The position numbers and the translations under genes were made by a program. This document shows, one piece after another, positions 516-12,869 of a stretch of DNA of 64,000 nt. Numbering within the stretch: position 1 is the first letter of the stretch; every line of letters starts with the position of its first letter. The notes under the pieces were generated by a model that saw only the letters and a program-made list of their open reading frames with translations, was not told the origin of the DNA and made no database searches. The DNA is from Bacillota bacterium (GTDB lineage Bacteria > Bacillota > Dethiobacteria > Dethiobacterales > Dethiobacteraceae), in NCBI GenBank assembly GCA_012521405.1, contig JAAYMK010000124.1, positions 1 to 64,000 on the forward strand, given 5' to 3'.

Positions 516-1802
516 ATGAATAAACTTGTTAAAAAAATTGTCAAAACATTCGGGAATATTATTACAGCACAAGTAGCCATAAACCCCGTTCGCACCCGCA
601 AGCTGCTGGCGATAGTCTACGGGTTAAATGGCTGGCGCAATCTCCTTTGGGGAGGGAGCGGGCTGGAAGGAGCATATGCAAAGTTAGGAGCCGCTTTATC
701 CCGCTCAATTTGCAAATCTTTTTTACAGCCCGGGAATTCAGTAATGGTGAATATTTTCTTTCCCTGCGAGCTTCTTCACGCCCTCAACATCATCCCCATG
801 TTCCCGGAAGCATTGTCCGTATATCTTGTTAATTCCGCCTGTGAACAAGTTTTTGCCGAAGCGGCGGAAAATGCCGGTGTCCCGGAGAGCTTTTGCTCTT
901 ACCATAAAATTATGCTCGGCATGGCGGAAACCGGTGTGCTACCAAAGCCCCTCTTAATTACCAATACCACACTGGCCTGTGATGCAAACCGCCTTTCCTT
1001 CCGGCGCTTGGCGGAACACTACCAAATTCCGCATTTGGTGGTAGACATTCCGGACAAAATCAACAGCGAGGCGGAACATTATGTGGCAGAACAGCTGCGT
1101 GCCGTCACCGCCGCCCTGGAAGACTGCTGCAAAAAAAAATTGGCATGGGAGAAGTTGTGCGAGGCGATCAGTATAGCGGATCGCTCTCTCAAAAGCTACC
1201 AAGAATATTTGGAATTCCGCGGCCGCTGCTCCCTGCCCGTAACCATGAGCGGTGAATTGTACTCGCTCATTGCCACTCATGTTTTTCTCGGTACGCCGGA
1301 AAGCGAGGATTATCTTAATGCCCTCAGGCAGGCGGCGCAAAATGCACCTTTACCAAAGGCAGGAAAAAAGAGGCTACTTTGGCTGCATACACTGCCCAAT
1401 TGGCAGGAATCCCTGCAAACATTTTTTGCGCCAGACGGGCACTTTGAAATTGTGGGCTGCGACCTTACTTACGATGTTCTGGTTGACATGGATCCCCAAA
1501 GACCTTATGAGAGCATGGCCAGGCGTCTTCTCTACAATTTTAACAACGGCCCAGCCCAGCGGCGCATTGCAGCGGCGGCTCATTATGCTAAAAAATTACA
1601 AGCAGACGGTGTCCTGATTTTCTGTCACTGGGGATGCAAACAGACTATGGGGATGGCACTGCTGGCTAAAAGCATCCTGGAAGCGGAAGGCTTTCCCACA
1701 CTTGTCCTGGACGGCGACGGCTGTGATTCCCGCAATGTCTCAGACGGGCAGATGGTAACGCGGTTAAGCGCTTTTCTGGAGCAACTGGAGGAGAAAAAAT
1801 GA
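516..1802 (+). CDS. 2-hydroxyacyl-CoA dehydratase / double-cubane-type reductase subunit (HgdB family)
   Basis: A 428-residue protein of the HgdA/HgdB/BcrC superfamily, which binds iron-sulfur clusters through cysteines and receives a low-potential electron from an ATP-driven activase. Visible features are FFPCELL (Cys84), Cys109, Cys127, Cys155, and a C-terminal CHWGCKQ motif (Cys370, Cys374), typical of the family's cluster-binding core. The start is an ATG preceded by GGAGAG. It overlaps the next gene by 4 bases, so the two are probably translationally coupled and form one enzyme. Candidate activities are dehydration of a 2-hydroxyacyl-CoA or the poorly understood double-cubane reductases; no CoA-transferase gene lies nearby, which weakens a simple dehydratase assignment. 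Confidence 0.72.
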   Translation: MNKLVKKIVKTFGNIITAQVAINPVRTRKLLAIVYGLNGWRNLLWGGSGLEGAYAKLGAALSRSICKSFLQPGNSVMVNIFFPCELLHALNIIPMFPEALSVYLVNSACEQVFAEAAENAGVPESFCSYHKIMLGMAETGVLPKPLLITNTTLACDANRLSFRRLAEHYQIPHLVVDIPDKINSEAEHYVAEQLRAVTAALEDCCKKKLAWEKLCEAISIADRSLKSYQEYLEFRGRCSLPVTMSGELYSLIATHVFLGTPESEDYLNALRQAAQNAPLPKAGKKRLLWLHTLPNWQESLQTFFAPDGHFEIVGCDLTYDVLVDMDPQRPYESMARRLLYNFNNGPAQRRIAAAAHYAKKLQADGVLIFCHWGCKQTMGMALLAKSILEAEGFPTLVLDGDGCDSRNVSDGQMVTRLSAFLEQLEEKK

Positions 1803-3454
1803 TTGGCTACACTTGTAAATACACACCAGTGGAATTATTAAACGCCCTGGGGGCAAAGACAAAACTCTTAAACAATGAAGTTTTAGATTTTGCCGAGGCC
1901 GAAGTATTGACCCATACAAATCTTTGCTGCCATGCCAAAGCTTTTCTCCAGCAAAGTTTGCAGGTGGAAGAGCTTGTTCTGGTCAACTGCTGTGATGCTT
2001 TGCGTAGGGTATATGATGTACTGAAAGTGCAAGGTAAACATAAACTGCTGCCTTTAATTACTCTCCCCCATACTGACGACCCCTGTGCCCGCCGCCTCTT
2101 GCAACAGGAACTTTTGCAGCTTTATGAGTGGTACAGCGACCGTTACAATGCTAACTTTAACAGGCAGTTATTTATTGACGCCTGCAGGCAAGCGGCGGCT
2201 CCTGTGATAGACAAGCCGTTCCTTGCGGTCTTGGGAGCCAGAGTCAGTAGCCAAATGTTTACTTTTTTACAAGCAAAAACGCCCTATCCTCTGCTGGATT
2301 TGACTTGCAGCGGCAATAGATGGCTGGGAAACCTGCCGGACGACCTTGCAACCATGGATTTTACAGCACTTATGGACTGGTATGCCGGCGCCCTTCTCCG
2401 CCTTGTACCCTGCATGCGCATGACAAATGTGGCAGGTAGGCGGATTCTTTGGGAAAATGAAAATCTACGCGGCATTATTTATCATACAGTCAAATTTTGC
2501 GATTATTATGGTTTTGAGTACGCTAAACTGAAAAAAGAAACTACTCTGCCCCTTTTAAAGCTGGAATCGGATTATACTCCCCAGGCGTCAGGACAGTTTA
2601 CCACCCGCCTGGAAGCATTTATCGAAAGCATAACACCACAGCGCACTGCACTCCCGTTGCCAAAAGCAAAGGGCAAGAAACTTTATGCCGGCATTGACAG
2701 CGGCTCCACCACAACAAATATAGTGGTCTTAAATGAAGAGTACCAAATAGTGGCTTCTGCCACTGTCCGCACCGGGGCAAAGGTGGAAAAAAGCGCCCGG
2801 GCGGCCTTGGAAAAGGTTTGCCAAATCTTGCAGGCAGAAGTAGATGATTTTGCCGCCATTGTAGCCACAGGCTATGGTAGAAACAGTATTTCCTTTGCCG
2901 TTACCGCCGTGACGGAAATAACCTGTCACGCCCGGGGAGCCCATTTTCTCAACCCCCGCGTTCGTACCATTGTGGACATTGGTGGTCAGGATAGTAAGGT
3001 CATCTGCCTGGCCGGCGATGGCACGGTGACAAATTTCCTGATGAACGATAAGTGCGCCGCCGGCACGGGACGTTTCCTGGAAATGATGGCCCGCACCCTG
3101 GAAATGGAAATAGAAGAGTTAAGCACAATAGGACTTATTTGGCAGCATGATTTAACTATCTCCAGCATGTGCACCGTCTTTGCCGAATCTGAAGTCATCT
3201 CCCTTATTGCCGCCAACCACTGCACACCTGATATTGTGCACGGACTGAATAAAGCGGTGGCGGCCAAAACTGCTTCCATGATCAGCCGCGCCGGAGGCCG
3301 GGGGCCTTATATGATGACAGGAGGCGTGGCGCGCAATCTAGGTGTGGTGCGGGAATTGGAAAAGAAGCTGGGAGAGAAATTGTTGATCCCGGAAACGCCT
3401 GACCTATGTGGTGCCCTGGGTGCCGCCATACTGGCACGGGAACAAGAAAAGTAG
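1799..3454 (+). CDS. HgdB-like domain fused to ATP-dependent activase (BadF/BadG/HgdC type)
   Basis: A 551-residue fusion. Residues about 1-290 resemble an HgdB-type subunit, including the C-terminal KFCDYYGFEYAKLK and SGQFTTRLEAF regions. Residues about 295-551 are an ASKHA-fold activase: phosphate-1 loop GIDSGSTTTN, DIGGQDSK, and CAAGTGRF. Cys419 and Cys458 are 39 residues apart, the same spacing as the cluster-bridging cysteines of Acidaminococcus HgdC (127 and 166). In this family a [4Fe-4S] cluster held between two activase monomers fires electrons into the partner on ATP hydrolysis. Here activator and acceptor half-site are one polypeptide, and the gene at 516-1802 supplies the second subunit. 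The substrate is unknown. Confidence 0.78.
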   Translation: MIGYTCKYTPVELLNALGAKTKLLNNEVLDFAEAEVLTHTNLCCHAKAFLQQSLQVEELVLVNCCDALRRVYDVLKVQGKHKLLPLITLPHTDDPCARRLLQQELLQLYEWYSDRYNANFNRQLFIDACRQAAAPVIDKPFLAVLGARVSSQMFTFLQAKTPYPLLDLTCSGNRWLGNLPDDLATMDFTALMDWYAGALLRLVPCMRMTNVAGRRILWENENLRGIIYHTVKFCDYYGFEYAKLKKETTLPLLKLESDYTPQASGQFTTRLEAFIESITPQRTALPLPKAKGKKLYAGIDSGSTTTNIVVLNEEYQIVASATVRTGAKVEKSARAALEKVCQILQAEVDDFAAIVATGYGRNSISFAVTAVTEITCHARGAHFLNPRVRTIVDIGGQDSKVICLAGDGTVTNFLMNDKCAAGTGRFLEMMARTLEMEIEELSTIGLIWQHDLTISSMCTVFAESEVISLIAANHCTPDIVHGLNKAVAAKTASMISRAGGRGPYMMTGGVARNLGVVRELEKKLGEKLLIPETPDLCGALGAAILAREQEK

Positions 3455-8308: not shown

Positions 8309-9142
8309 TTAATTCTCCTGCAGAATCTGCCTAGCCCCTGTCAGGGCGGCGTTAAAGATGGCTAGGCGGTCAAATCTTTTTGTATGATAGCCTGTATTTT
8401 TCGTGGTAGTCCGGCGGATCACAATTACTTCCGCATTTCCATCGCTTTGAAATGCCACGGTAATGTTTCTGCCGGCAGGGATTTTTTCCACATATTTGTG
8501 CAAACCAAAACCTTTCCGTGCCGGAATGACGCAATAAAAGTAGGGGTAGACGGTACCTTGCACTTGATTAAGATGGATTTGTCCCTGCAGCCCATAGAAA
8601 CCTTCCGGCTGCCCGGCAAAGTTCACTGTAAAACGTGCATCTACCGGCACACTTTTACCGCTTTGCTCCCGAGCCAGCAATAATGCCGGTACAAAAGTTT
8701 CGTTTATTTTTTTTACCAGCTTAAACTCTGCCTCCATCTCCATGATAATGGCGATTTTGCGCTGTAAGTTGTCCTGCGTGGATACCTTTCTTGTGCCGTT
8801 AAACCAAAGGGGAAAAAACAAAATCACCGCGTCCAAAAGGAAAATCAGCCCCACATGGGCACTGCCGTAAAGGGAAATCAGAAGAAAAAAAGTTATTGCT
8901 GCAGCACCTGCAGCCAGAAGAAAAATCAGCAATCCCAGGCCGTTTGTTATGTCTAAAGTATCCGCATTCCATTTTTTGATCCTGTCCCCGAGCCTTTTAA
9001 TTTCCTGGATGCGCTCCATATCCACAACTGTCCAGTTGCTGTCCTTTATATACTTTTCCAAGCGGATGCGATTGTCAAAGCCCTCCACCAGATTAAGGGC
9101 AGCAGCGCCAACTAAAAACAAGGCACCGGGAAAAACTCTCAT
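8309..9142 (-). CDS. membrane protein of unknown function (last gene of the repeat-protein locus)
   Basis: A 277-residue protein I do not recognise. It starts with a hydrophobic stretch (about 4-20), has two more membrane segments (about 68-110, LLIFLLAAGAA and IFLLDAVILFF), then a soluble C-terminal half of about 160 residues. The start has only a weak ribosome-binding site. Most striking, the frame continues upstream without shift: a single TAG at 9152-9154 and three codons separate it from the 46-residue frame at 9152-9292. Read through, the pair would be one protein of about 327 residues with a natural two-helix N-terminal hairpin. Its position suggests a role linked to the radical SAM system, such as export or anchoring, which is inference only. 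Confidence 0.6.
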   Translation of the reverse strand: MRVFPGALFLVGAAALNLVEGFDNRIRLEKYIKDSNWTVVDMERIQEIKRLGDRIKKWNADTLDITNGLGLLIFLLAAGAAAITFFLLISLYGSAHVGLIFLLDAVILFFPLWFNGTRKVSTQDNLQRKIAIIMEMEAEFKLVKKINETFVPALLLAREQSGKSVPVDARFTVNFAGQPEGFYGLQGQIHLNQVQGTVYPYFYCVIPARKGFGLHKYVEKIPAGRNITVAFQSDGNAEVIVIRRTTTKNTGYHTKRFDRLAIFNAALTGARQILQEN

Positions 9143-9151
9143 TATACTTAT

Positions 9152-9292
9152 CTAGGTCAGTAACCCGGCCGCTGCCAGCAGTATAAACCAGCGCATTCTG
9201 GTGGTATACGACAAGCCTTTAAACAGCAAAAACTGTACCTGGCCCTGCTTTTCCGGCGGCAAAAAAACAGAATTATGGATTCTTCGCCTCAT
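9152..9292 (-). CDS. 46-residue membrane peptide, coupled to the radical SAM gene; possibly the N-terminus of the next gene
   Basis: A short frame starting at the ATG 9292-9290, which overlaps the radical SAM stop as ATGA and has GGGGGAG just upstream. It is basic at the N-terminus (MRRRIHN) and hydrophobic at the C-terminus (FILLAAAGLL), ending at TAG. Because the following membrane gene is in exactly the same frame only 9 bases later, this is either a free small membrane protein or the first part of that gene interrupted by an amber codon. Confidence 0.5.
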   Translation of the reverse strand: MRRRIHNSVFLPPEKQGQVQFLLFKGLSYTTRMRWFILLAAAGLLT

Positions 9293-10623
9293 AATGCTCC
9301 CCCTTCCTGCAGCAATCCGCATGCCTGCCAGTAACTTTCCAGGTCGCCATAGCCGTGGCTTTGGAAATACAAAGGACAGGCTCCCTGGCAAAGGGCAAAA
9401 TGCTGGCACTTTTTACACAACGGCGGTGCAGCTTTTTTTTGGCGAATCCAGACACTCTGCTTTTGATACCAAATAGAAGTAAAACCTTCCGTAAGCAGGT
9501 TACCTAAAGGCATAGGCCAACTGGAACAGGGCAAAACATTACCTTGCGCATCTACAGATAAAAGCCCTTCACAAGCACTGCAACCTTTATTGCCAAAACC
9601 GGCCGCCACAGGATTAAAGAGACAAATTGGCGTAGGTGAATACCACATAAATTCCACACCGGCCGCGGCGGCAGCTTGCCTGATTTCCGCGATAATTTCA
9701 CCGATTTCTGTATAGCTGACTTTTAACTCTGCATCAGCACCGCGCCCCGCCGGTATCACCAAGTTGGCGGAAAATCTTTCGATACCGAGGCGGCGCACAA
9801 ATTCCGGGTAATCCGCCACTTTCTCTTTGTTGAGCCTATTAATGGTGATGTGAGGATGCACGCTCACCCCCGCTTCCTTTAATGCCTGCAGGCCGGCCAC
9901 GGAAGCGTCATGAGAACCGGGGACGCCGCTGATGGCATCATGTTCCTCCTGGCAAGCAGATTCAATGCTAACTTGGGCGGAAGCCAAACCGGCCCGCGCC
10001 AGTTCTCTGGCTTTCTGCCCACTGATAAGCGTACCGTTTGTAATCAAGTTTACCCTCATGCCGTTATTTTGCGCGGCATATTTGATCAAATCCGTCAGCT
10101 CCGCAAATAAAAGGGGCTCTCCCCCGGTAAAGGACACACTGGGTACTTCCGCTTCATAGCGGATAATATCCAGGACTTTTTTAAATCCCTTAAGATCCAG
10201 TTGATTTGCTTTTTTATTTTCCGTACAACCGGCATAACAAAAACGGCACTTAATATTACAGGCAGACGTCACAGCCACTTCCGACAAGACAGGCAGCTCA
10301 ATATAACCCAAGGTAAATTCACGCCTGATAATGGCCGGCGTTATATAGTTGTCACAAATTTCGTGATTCCACATTCGTGTCAGATCAAGAAAGAAACGTT
10401 CCAGCTGCTCCTCCGTTTCCGGCGCGTCCGCCCTGGCTTTAATTATGTCCAATACTGAACCGCCGCTTAAAATATGGGCGACAATCCTGGCTCCGGTAGT
10501 ATTAAGTTTAAAGGCCTCGTTGGGCATGCGAATCAGGACGTTATCCCGCAGGCGCAGATAAACGTACGGTTTAATCTGCCGCAAAAAATCGTCTACCCAA
10601 GCGAGGCGGTGTTTTTTTCTCAT
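9289..10623 (-). CDS. radical SAM/SPASM peptide-modifying enzyme with N-terminal PqqD-like (RRE) domain
   Basis: A 444-residue maturase. Residues about 20-90 resemble the PqqD/RRE peptide-recognition fold (FKLNTTGARIVAHIL). The radical SAM core has CNIKCRFC (Cys122, 126, 129) that holds the SAM-cleaving [4Fe-4S] cluster, and FTGGEPL downstream. The C-terminus is a full SPASM domain for auxiliary clusters: a CSAC...C region, then CKKCQHFALCQGAC, which fits C-x2-C-x5-C-x3-C, and a final Cys. Such enzymes crosslink or epimerise ribosomal peptides. Its ATG (10623) overlaps the stop of the Cys-His-Ser-Ala repeat gene as ATGA, with GGAGGTG 5 bases upstream, so substrate and enzyme are probably made together. 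The likely substrate is that repeat tail. Confidence 0.88.
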   Translation of the reverse strand: MRKKHRLAWVDDFLRQIKPYVYLRLRDNVLIRMPNEAFKLNTTGARIVAHILSGGSVLDIIKARADAPETEEQLERFFLDLTRMWNHEICDNYITPAIIRREFTLGYIELPVLSEVAVTSACNIKCRFCYAGCTENKKANQLDLKGFKKVLDIIRYEAEVPSVSFTGGEPLLFAELTDLIKYAAQNNGMRVNLITNGTLISGQKARELARAGLASAQVSIESACQEEHDAISGVPGSHDASVAGLQALKEAGVSVHPHITINRLNKEKVADYPEFVRRLGIERFSANLVIPAGRGADAELKVSYTEIGEIIAEIRQAAAAAGVEFMWYSPTPICLFNPVAAGFGNKGCSACEGLLSVDAQGNVLPCSSWPMPLGNLLTEGFTSIWYQKQSVWIRQKKAAPPLCKKCQHFALCQGACPLYFQSHGYGDLESYWQACGLLQEGGAL

Positions 10624-12206
10624 CTTGCACCTCCACTGACACAGGCGGAATGACAAGCCGAGTGGCAAGCGGAATGGCACGCGGAGTGACAGGCGGAGTG
10701 GCAGGCCGAATGGCAGGCATCATGGCAGGCGGAATGACAGACAAATACTCCCGGTCCTGAATTGAAAATAGAATCTAATGATCGTTTTTCAGGTTTGACA
10801 GGAAAAGTTTTTTCATACCTGTTGATGTGCTTTCTATACCTGAGGCCGCTGGTGTAAAAATACCAGTAAGGCCAGTAGCCGGTAAAAAAAATAGTTCTGT
10901 CTTTGTCCCGCACTGCGGGGAGCTCCTTTTCTTCTGCTTTGACCGCCGAGGCAATTTGCTCCTGGTAATACTGGCGTGTAGCCTCCAAATCACAATCCCA
11001 GGTTTTCTTTTTTACATTCTCCATAATTTTTTGCAAAATTGCTTCCAATTCTTTTTCCTGAAAACGACCGTCCGCGGCGGCAGCGTACATCATTTTTTCA
11101 TACTCATTAAGCTCAGGGGATTGGGAAAAGAGATTATCCTTAATGACACGGCGCACCCGGAGGGGATTTCGGGAAACTTCCTCAAGATATCCCTTCTCAA
11201 TGAGCTTGGCAAGGATGGCAGCAAGAATACTTTGATAGGGTACCCCCAAAAACATGGCTGCTTCAATGCTGTCTAAATCTTTGGCAATGGTGCCGTCCTT
11301 GCGGAAGGAGGCAATTTCAAGCTTTGGCGGCTCCCAATCGGTTCTGGCCCACTGTACTTCCTCCAGGGAAGCTTTGGCCTGCACATGGGAGCGATGCTTT
11401 TTCCCCACCACCCAAAAGGTAACCAGGAAAAGCCCCCGCAGTGCCAGCACCAGACCTGTTCTACTGCTTGCAGGCAGCAAAGGAGTACCACCCTGGCCGG
11501 AAGGCTCCTGCCCCCGGCTTTCCGGCACTCGGGGCAGCGGTACTTCCTTGACGCCGTTACTGCCCCCTTCAGGTAATGTAAAAACATCTGCGTCAATATA
11601 TTGCTGAATCCGGAATTGATAATATGCTCCGGGTGTTGCCTTATGTAACAGCACCTGCGCCCAAAAAACATCATTCACTTTATTTGCGCGGTAATCAAGA
11701 AGATATTCTTCATTCATCCACGGTTCCGTGGCAAAACCCTGCTCCAGCAAACTTGCCTCTATTTCCTCCCTGCCATCCTGCTTTGACACCTCAAGGGGAT
11801 AGGTCACGGTAACGGTATAATACTCCATCTGCTCATCCCACTGGGTGGGAGACCAGTTAAAAACAACCAAAGGGCTGCCGTCGGCGGCTGTTGTTTTTGC
11901 CAAATACCCTGCCGCGTACATGTCAGCGGCAAAACGGAATTTATATGTTAAATGCTCCCCGCCTAAGCGTTTTTCCCCAGCGTGAATGAGATCATAATTG
12001 CCGCCGCCCAGATTTACAATCTCTAGCTCATAAGCAGTATTATCATCTGTTATGACCCAGGCATGCTCTTGGTCAAAGACAGGATTTAGCCTGTCAAAAC
12101 CTGACATGGTAAAGGCCAGCATGGTCTGCCCGGGCACCAGGTTGTAGCGCACGGTATAAGTAATTATGGCTTTACCGTCCGCCAGTAAAAGCACATCCGT
12201 CCACAA
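10620..12206 (-). CDS. DUF2207-like membrane protein ending in eight Cys-His-Ser-Ala repeats (putative radical SAM substrate)
   Basis: The open frame gives 528 residues starting at a TTG. The first 240 residues look like an extracytoplasmic beta-rich domain, residues about 250-268 form one membrane helix (LVLALRGLFLVTFWVV), and the rest is predicted cytosolic, ending in the repeat tail at 10641-10739. The layout resembles DUF2207 or TIGR04222 proteins, which carry low-complexity C-termini; that kinship is tentative. The frame lacks its signal peptide, which is encoded immediately upstream one base out of frame (12172-12294). It overlaps the radical SAM gene by ATGA. I infer that the tail, facing the cytosol, is the modification target. 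Confidence 0.75.
   Translation of the reverse strand: MWTDVLLLADGKAIITYTVRYNLVPGQTMLAFTMSGFDRLNPVFDQEHAWVITDDNTAYELEIVNLGGGNYDLIHAGEKRLGGEHLTYKFRFAADMYAAGYLAKTTAADGSPLVVFNWSPTQWDEQMEYYTVTVTYPLEVSKQDGREEIEASLLEQGFATEPWMNEEYLLDYRANKVNDVFWAQVLLHKATPGAYYQFRIQQYIDADVFTLPEGGSNGVKEVPLPRVPESRGQEPSGQGGTPLLPASSRTGLVLALRGLFLVTFWVVGKKHRSHVQAKASLEEVQWARTDWEPPKLEIASFRKDGTIAKDLDSIEAAMFLGVPYQSILAAILAKLIEKGYLEEVSRNPLRVRRVIKDNLFSQSPELNEYEKMMYAAAADGRFQEKELEAILQKIMENVKKKTWDCDLEATRQYYQEQIASAVKAEEKELPAVRDKDRTIFFTGYWPYWYFYTSGLRYRKHINRYEKTFPVKPEKRSLDSIFNSGPGVFVCHSACHDACHSACHSACHSACHSACHSACHSACVSGGAR
10641..10739 (-). repeat. tandem Cys-His-Ser-Ala coding repeat (8 units plus a ninth Cys)
   Basis: Eight 12-base units encode C-H-S-A (the second unit reads C-H-D-A), followed by a final Cys, giving nine cysteines spaced exactly four residues apart. 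Synonymous positions differ between units: TGT/TGC, CAT/CAC, TCC/TCG and GCC/GCG/GCT all occur. The peptide therefore appears to be under selection rather than a fresh slippage product. The spacing resembles CXXX-type repeat peptides that are modified by radical SAM enzymes. Confidence 0.9.
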
Positions 12207-12294
12207 AACCTAAATGCGCCACGGCGGCCTGCCCGGAACTAACAGGCAAAACCAACAGTAAGCAAATAAGGCAGCCGATAAAGATTTTTTTCAT
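12172..12294 (-). pseudogene. out-of-frame signal-peptide segment of the repeat protein
   Basis: From the ATG at 12294 this 40-codon frame encodes a classical signal peptide: MKKIF, hydrophobic core CLLLVLPV, then SSGQAA before a likely cleavage site. It then runs out of register with the following gene. Removing one T from the TTTT run at 12208-12205 fuses it directly to the downstream frame at Trp-Thr-Asp. The start overlaps the uracil-DNA glycosylase stop (ATGATGA context) and has GGTGGAG upstream. It is either a genuine frameshift or a homopolymer error in the assembly. Confidence 0.7.
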
Positions 12295-12869
12295 CATCTC
12301 TCCACCCGTTTCAGCGTATTTACCATCTCCACTACGCGACGGAAATCCTCAATCATCACATCTGCTCTCACCGTTCCCCGCAGCACTGCAGCCGGGTGAT
12401 AGGTAGGATAAAGCTTATACCCCGGCCCATCGAACCAGTGTCCGTGCACGTCCACAAGACGGGCTTTTTTGTCCAGCAAATTCTGAATGGCCACCAACCC
12501 CATGCACACCACCACCTGCGGCTTAATAATCGCCAACTGCTGCTGCAAAATGGAACGGCAGGCGGTAAGTTCTTTTTTATAGGGATTGCGGTTTTTGGGC
12601 GGGCGGCATTTACATGATCCGGTTATATAGACATCCTGCCGGTTAATGCCGGCTTGAGTCAACATTTCCGTTAGCAGCTCCCCCGCCCGGCCCACAAAGG
12701 GTCGACCGGTCTCATCTTCCTTGGCACCGGGAGCTTCTCCCAGTAAAAAAATCTCGGCATCTGCTTTACCTTCACCAAAAACCAGGTTTTTTCTGGTGGC
12801 TCCCAGCTCACAATTTTGGCAGGTTAAACTTTGTGTATACAATGCTTGTAGCTTCGCCTTTGCTGACAT
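12294..12869 (-). CDS. udg: family-4 uracil-DNA glycosylase
   Basis: A 191-residue [4Fe-4S] uracil-DNA glycosylase that removes uracil arising from cytosine deamination. Features are the cluster cysteines CQNC near the N-terminus and CKC/CRS further on, the active-site GEAPG motif, RPFVGRAGELL, and the HPAAVLRG motif near the C-terminus. The length is typical for the family. It lies 42 bases after dnaE and its stop overlaps the ATG of the repeat-protein gene, so it probably shares the LexA-box promoter at 16027-16076. Confidence 0.93.
   Translation of the reverse strand: MSAKAKLQALYTQSLTCQNCELGATRKNLVFGEGKADAEIFLLGEAPGAKEDETGRPFVGRAGELLTEMLTQAGINRQDVYITGSCKCRPPKNRNPYKKELTACRSILQQQLAIIKPQVVVCMGLVAIQNLLDKKARLVDVHGHWFDGPGYKLYPTYHPAAVLRGTVRADVMIEDFRRVVEMVNTLKRVER

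Follow-up and report, generated by a model that had tools for sequence, protein, structure and literature searches.

Most of what is known about radical SAM maturases concerns their action on small peptides. The stretch of DNA analysed here (the window, 64,000 nucleotides of contig JAAYMK010000124.1 from a Bacillota bacterium) places a radical SAM/SPASM gene directly behind the gene for an integral membrane protein that ends in Cys-His-Ser-Ala repeats. What does such an enzyme act on, and could the tail of a membrane protein be its substrate?

Three overlapping genes

The locus consists of three consecutive, overlapping genes on the minus strand, and both junctions are ATGA overlaps; the overlap between the tail-protein gene and the maturase gene had been reported in a preliminary description of this DNA and is present in the sequence. 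Gene 1 encodes the repeat-tailed membrane protein. Its main open frame (10620..12206) specifies 528 residues from a TTG start, and its 5′ end (12206..12297), comprising an ATG and the signal peptide MMKKIFIGCLICLLLVLPVSSGQAAVAHLGFV, is read in a different frame from the remainder. Gene 2 (9289..10623) encodes the 444-residue maturase and is intact. A GGAGG ribosome-binding-like (Shine-Dalgarno-like) site for the maturase (10630-10634, minus strand) falls within the last codons of the tail gene, those of a C-terminal cap, VSGGAR (10623..10640), that is kept across all 36 loci of this kind known to us. Gene 3 (8309..9292, ~327 codons) encodes a second membrane protein, its start overlapping the maturase stop. 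This third gene had escaped the preliminary description, whose range (9152-12297) takes in its start, the region 9152-9292; it is an obligate member of the cassette, with a match at 36/36 loci. Elsewhere in the window, on the plus strand (516-3454), the gene for a 2-hydroxyacyl-CoA dehydratase/double-cubane-type protein is followed by one whose product has an acyl-CoA dehydratase activase domain.

The repeat tail

The tail (10641..10739, minus strand) reads CHSA CHDA (CHSA)6 C. It had been described as eight CHSA units and a ninth Cys at four-residue spacing; the count, the Cys residues and the spacing stand, but the second unit is CHDA, so that only seven units are CHSA. Across the 36 loci the tail has either 8 or 9 units and no other number. 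Among their 313 units, His and Ala occur in all 313 and Cys in 312, and the third position is variable (S 247, D 48, A 8, N 7, G 2, T 1). Asp, Asn and Ala at this position cluster in the N-terminal units (for instance at loci L040, L051 and L074), and the final four nearly always read CHSA, a pattern that suggests a polarity along the tail. The sole lost Cys belongs to locus L061, where the first unit is WHSA.

An intact sister copy is available from a genome of the same genus (G001; loci L013/L034) for direct comparison. Over the 39 codons of the tail, the window and the sister differ at 11 synonymous and 0 nonsynonymous positions, the amino acids being identical (dN = 0), and dN/dS for the whole genes is 0.15 (gene 1), 0.12 (gene 2) and 0.27 (gene 3). 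Synonymous codons for the tail Cys, His, Ser and Ala are used freely, with wobble positions unconstrained. Within gene 1, mean column conservation is highest in the tail (0.96), lower in the folded parts (0.74 and 0.70) and lowest in the linker preceding the tail (0.47). The codon comparison, together with the rarity of the pattern (3 of 399 genomes of the phylum, with none for a reversed control pattern), argues that the tail is no product of chance, and judged from these data it is under purifying selection. The same evidence bears on one alternative, a low-complexity expansion of no selected function that happens to sit beside an unrelated radical SAM gene. Slippage can create short repeats, but it sits poorly with a unit count fixed at 8 or 9, with residues that stay invariant while wobble codons vary, and with an exclusive association at 36 loci across phyla; we regard this explanation as refuted and leave it practically no weight.

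Tail and maturase travel together

When 85k genomes were scanned with an alignment of the maturase, 24 true orthologues (55-81% identity) emerged. They belong to Acetivibrio, Herbivorax, Thermoclostridium, Clostridiaceae and other Bacillota and, going by the titles of the records, to Ca. Fermentibacteria, Ca. Eisenbacteria and candidate division CSSED10-310. Two other matches, L058 and L059, proved to be unrelated radical SAM genes. In 24/24 orthologous loci the tail protein is encoded immediately upstream and gene 3 downstream, with flanks that vary; none of the orthologues stands beside a different precursor. Beyond the three genes, no fourth conserved member was found and no further family is common to more than 5 of the 24 loci. 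The count rose to 36 distinct loci in further searches, every one with these three genes in unchanged order; in the preliminary description, such co-occurrence of the tail and this enzyme family in other genomes had been named as what would support a system.

Surveys independent of the enzyme gave the same picture. The tail pattern was searched in 399 genomes of the window's phylum and found in 3, all with the cassette, and the reversed control pattern was found in 0. The Acetivibrio order was covered by 58 genomes: 12 have the tail, and the same 12 have the maturase, adjoining the tail in 12/12. A search with the gene 1 body alone, stripped of its tail, recovered the same 12 genomes and 0 of the other 46. 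No repeat protein without a radical SAM enzyme thus appeared in either survey. As tail, body and enzyme are all-or-none in the 58 genomes, they have been gained and lost together in this sample, whose members share ancestry and do not count as 58 independent observations; what makes the co-occurrence compelling is that other phyla show the arrangement too, amid different flanks. Pairwise distances for gene 1 track those for gene 2 (correlation of the matrices, r = 0.92). No maturase relative was found in viral contigs, neither gene 1 nor the maturase in plasmids, and no gene 1 in phages. CHSA repeats in three viral contigs (L010, L011, L012) were dismissed as chance, since the frame in use encodes PVTQ repeats and CHSA is out of frame.

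Since tail and enzyme stay together in anaerobic bacteria that are only distantly related, the enzyme most likely modifies the tail. We put at roughly 70% the probability that the three genes form a dedicated post-translational modification system in which the maturase acts repeatedly on the gene 1 tail. Co-occurrence could reflect a shared pathway instead of an enzyme-substrate pair. In a rival reading, the tail would serve as a docking platform, and the enzyme would modify either gene 3 or another part of gene 1, such as the ectodomain or the linker. Gene 3 is equally obligate and a repeated motif could act as a multivalent binding site, but no part of gene 1 is more conserved than the tail, which is built of reactive Cys, and the predicted topology puts the ectodomain and the enzyme on opposite sides of the membrane. 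We consider this reading quite improbable.

A complete radical SAM/SPASM enzyme

The preliminary description had taken gene 2 for a complete radical SAM/SPASM enzyme, and the domain searches agree. The window protein matches Radical_SAM (4.6e-24) and SPASM (2.1e-09), both above the Pfam cut-offs, and the two domains (PF04055 and PF13186) are each matched in 20/20 maturase homologues. The cluster-binding Cys residues are intact: the CxxxCxxC motif (C122, C126 and C129; 10237..10260, minus strand) and the seven SPASM auxiliary-cluster Cys (C348, C351, C366, C403, C406, C412 and C416; 9376..9582, minus strand) are invariant in the 20 homologues.

The N-terminal region (10324..10623, minus strand), which contains an invariant IRMPNEAFK, is less certain. 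It had been called a PqqD-like recognition domain, and a weak match is indeed found at the maturase N-terminus, but the window protein reaches 13.0 bits against a Pfam cut-off of 23.4. PF05402 (PqqD) is weakly matched in 8/20 homologues (best 0.01), and the region has no significant relative in the PDB, with TfuB1 at E = 0.61. We therefore speak of an RRE/PqqD-like region. SkfB and PqqE, both peptide maturases, are among the enzyme's relatives of solved structure.

In NCBIfam, the top scores belong to the tetrapyrrole enzymes AhbD heme b synthase (136.4/500 bits) and NirJ2 (133.4/500 bits), far under the equivalog cut-off of 500 bits, and on this ground the maturase was rejected as an AhbD or NirJ enzyme. 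These scores nonetheless invite a different reading, in which the tail stays unmodified as a ladder of Cys and His that binds metal, heme or an iron-sulfur cluster, and the enzyme makes or alters the bound cofactor by tetrapyrrole-like chemistry. Alternating Cys and His are classic ligands, which suits such a ladder. Against it stand the wide margin by which the AhbD score falls short, the lack of a conserved fourth gene for cofactor synthesis, and the combination of a weak RRE-like N-terminal region with tight coupling to the tail gene, which suits a peptide substrate better. We hold cofactor chemistry to be unlikely, although it is the strongest of the rivals to tail modification.

The two membrane proteins

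At complete loci, the gene 1 product is a membrane protein of 550-610 residues (560 in the intact sister), and it is the sole Cys-repeat candidate there. The cassette was accordingly rejected as a typical ranthipeptide or sactipeptide system with a small leader-core precursor. Hydropathy of gene 1 indicates a signal peptide and one transmembrane (TM) helix, and from these the tail is predicted to be cytosolic, on the same side as radical SAM enzymes. From N- to C-terminus, gene 1 is modelled as a beta-rich extracytoplasmic domain, one TM helix, a winged-helix-like cytosolic region and the tail. This agrees with the earlier picture of the tail as the cytosolic end of a large membrane protein and the presumed substrate. 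The structure model draws the tail out into a single long helix at pLDDT values that mostly lie under 50, which is not interpretable. A PDB fold search pointed to M1 aminopeptidases (ERAP1 and others) with a TM-score of ~0.25 on the whole query over ~240 aligned columns; we discarded this as a generic beta-domain match.

The likeness of gene 1 to DUF2207 proteins is weak. The DUF2207 N-terminal domain (PF09972) is matched in 7/23 members, at best with 1.8e-05, but in neither the window nor the sister protein. Neither the tail protein nor gene 3 has a specific Pfam or NCBIfam model. Gene 3 is predicted to have 3-4 TM helices followed by a C-terminal beta domain; it belongs to no recognisable family, and a PDB fold search gave nothing better than E = 0.09.

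How the tail might be modified

If the tail is the substrate, the following sequence of events may be envisaged. Gene 1 would span the membrane, its beta-rich N-terminal domain facing outwards and its eight or nine C-H-x-A units lying in the cytosol. The maturase, whose translation is coupled to that of gene 1, would dock on it, probably through the RRE-like N-terminal region, and work iteratively along the repeats. As the third position varies whereas Cys, His and Ala are invariant, the atoms that react would most likely be the sulfur of Cys and a carbon of either Ala or His; the variability makes position 3 an unlikely acceptor, although its Asp or Asn may take part in some units. The chemistry could be, for example, one Cys thioether per unit, at about -2 Da each. 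Formylglycine formation was set aside, as no sulfatase-type motif (C/S-x-P/A-x-R) is present.

The product would be a rigid tail lined with Cys and His, able to bind metal or sense the redox state, and this lining suggests a role in metal or redox binding. Similarly, the outside domain and the winged-helix-like region suggest sensing or signalling: the modified tail would connect the cytosol with the outside domain, and gene 3 would be a partner in the membrane. In its most specific form, the proposal is that a receptor-like TM protein carries a fixed-length cytosolic Cys-His-x-Ala ladder, whose units a dedicated radical SAM/SPASM enzyme cross-links one after another to give a metal- or redox-active device. 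We offer it tentatively, as somewhat likelier to fail in some part than to hold as a whole. If correct, radical SAM chemistry would here produce a lasting functional element of a membrane protein and not a released peptide, and the membrane-protein tail would be a new kind of target for such maturation. The simple, nearly invariant repeat makes the chemistry easy to test, and the cassette, cross-phylum and strictly conserved, occurs in cultured Acetivibrio and Herbivorax strains, among them Acetivibrio mesophilus (locus L041) and Herbivorax sp. ANBcel31 (L037).

Relation to known systems

The preliminary description knew of no system with this arrangement, in agreement with our own search: no published description of the cassette, or of a CHSA/CXXX tail of such a kind, was found in the literature searched, which mostly leaves out subscription journals. 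By analogy, the cassette may work like repeat-peptide radical SAM systems, with PapA, TIGR04117 and TIGR04222 as the nearest precedents.

TIGR04222 (near_uncomplex) proteins are the nearest architectural parallel. These membrane proteins with Cys-rich C-terminal tails are proposed substrates of MNIO (DUF692) enzymes (PMC12452194), and share with gene 1 an extracytoplasmic domain, a low-complexity Cys-containing C-terminus and an oxidative iron enzyme encoded alongside. Their enzyme, however, is an MNIO where that of the cassette is a radical SAM/SPASM protein; their tails are Gly/Ser-rich, irregular and predicted to be periplasmic, in contrast to the strict CHxA register and predicted cytosolic location here; and MNIO genes are absent from a third of genomes (PMC12452194), whereas the cassette association is exclusive. 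The TIGR04222 model is weakly matched in 2/23 gene 1 members (best 0.0025), and the cassette has no conserved MNIO neighbour.

TIGR04117 (Syntroph_Cxxx in NCBIfam) resembles the tail in having Cys at every fourth residue and in being a predicted radical SAM target; it is a short family of 98 positions and was compared by the target protein alone. Its model gives weak matches in 21/23 gene 1 members (best 5.2e-06), that of the sister protein falling in the tail. At 11.8 bits against a cut-off of 50, the intact sister protein is not a member. No TIGR04117 precursor was found in 300 genomes of the phylum, in 2 others or in the control genomes.

Ranthipeptide systems are also close to the cassette. 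Among them, PapB is a single radical SAM maturase that forms a thioether in each of the six Cys-X3-Asp motifs of PapA (freyrasin) (PMC9413430). The repeat spacing of PapA equals that of the cassette tail, but PapA is a small peptide precursor with an Asp/Glu acceptor at i+4, whereas in the cassette the residue at i+4 is the Cys of the following unit and position 3 varies. TvgB likewise applies radical SAM chemistry to a four-residue repeat, the TVGG of TvgA, yielding cyclopropylglycine (PMC9062424); this differs from the cassette in its Cys-free repeat, its chemistry and its peptide precursor. DUF2207 membrane proteins such as SMU.243 (PMC10457818) share the weak N-terminal similarity noted above, but the match to DUF2207_C is negligible (one member, 0.091), and no literature linking DUF2207 with a radical SAM enzyme was found.

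Lesions in the window copy

The window copy carries two lesions that the preliminary description overlooked. Compared with the sister genome, whose copy is intact, gene 1 lacks 2 bases just after the signal peptide (~12206), and the resulting frameshift accounts for the TTG start of the 528-residue frame. In gene 3, an in-frame TAG (9152-9154) replaces a Gln that is nearly invariant in relatives, and the frame beyond it remains open and alignable. The window copy may be decaying, or it may have been mis-sequenced or misassembled; the low dN/dS of all three genes indicates that selection acted until recently. Frame breaks or stops also occur at loci L035, L056, L064 and L073. In a genome of another family (G068), the gene 1 ectodomain is frame-broken as well (L033, ~8195), so lesions are present in several cassette copies. 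At L064 (genome G453), where gene 1 is frame-broken, the maturase match stops at residue 370 within an open frame of 722 codons, and either a deletion or a fusion of the maturase with gene 3 is possible.
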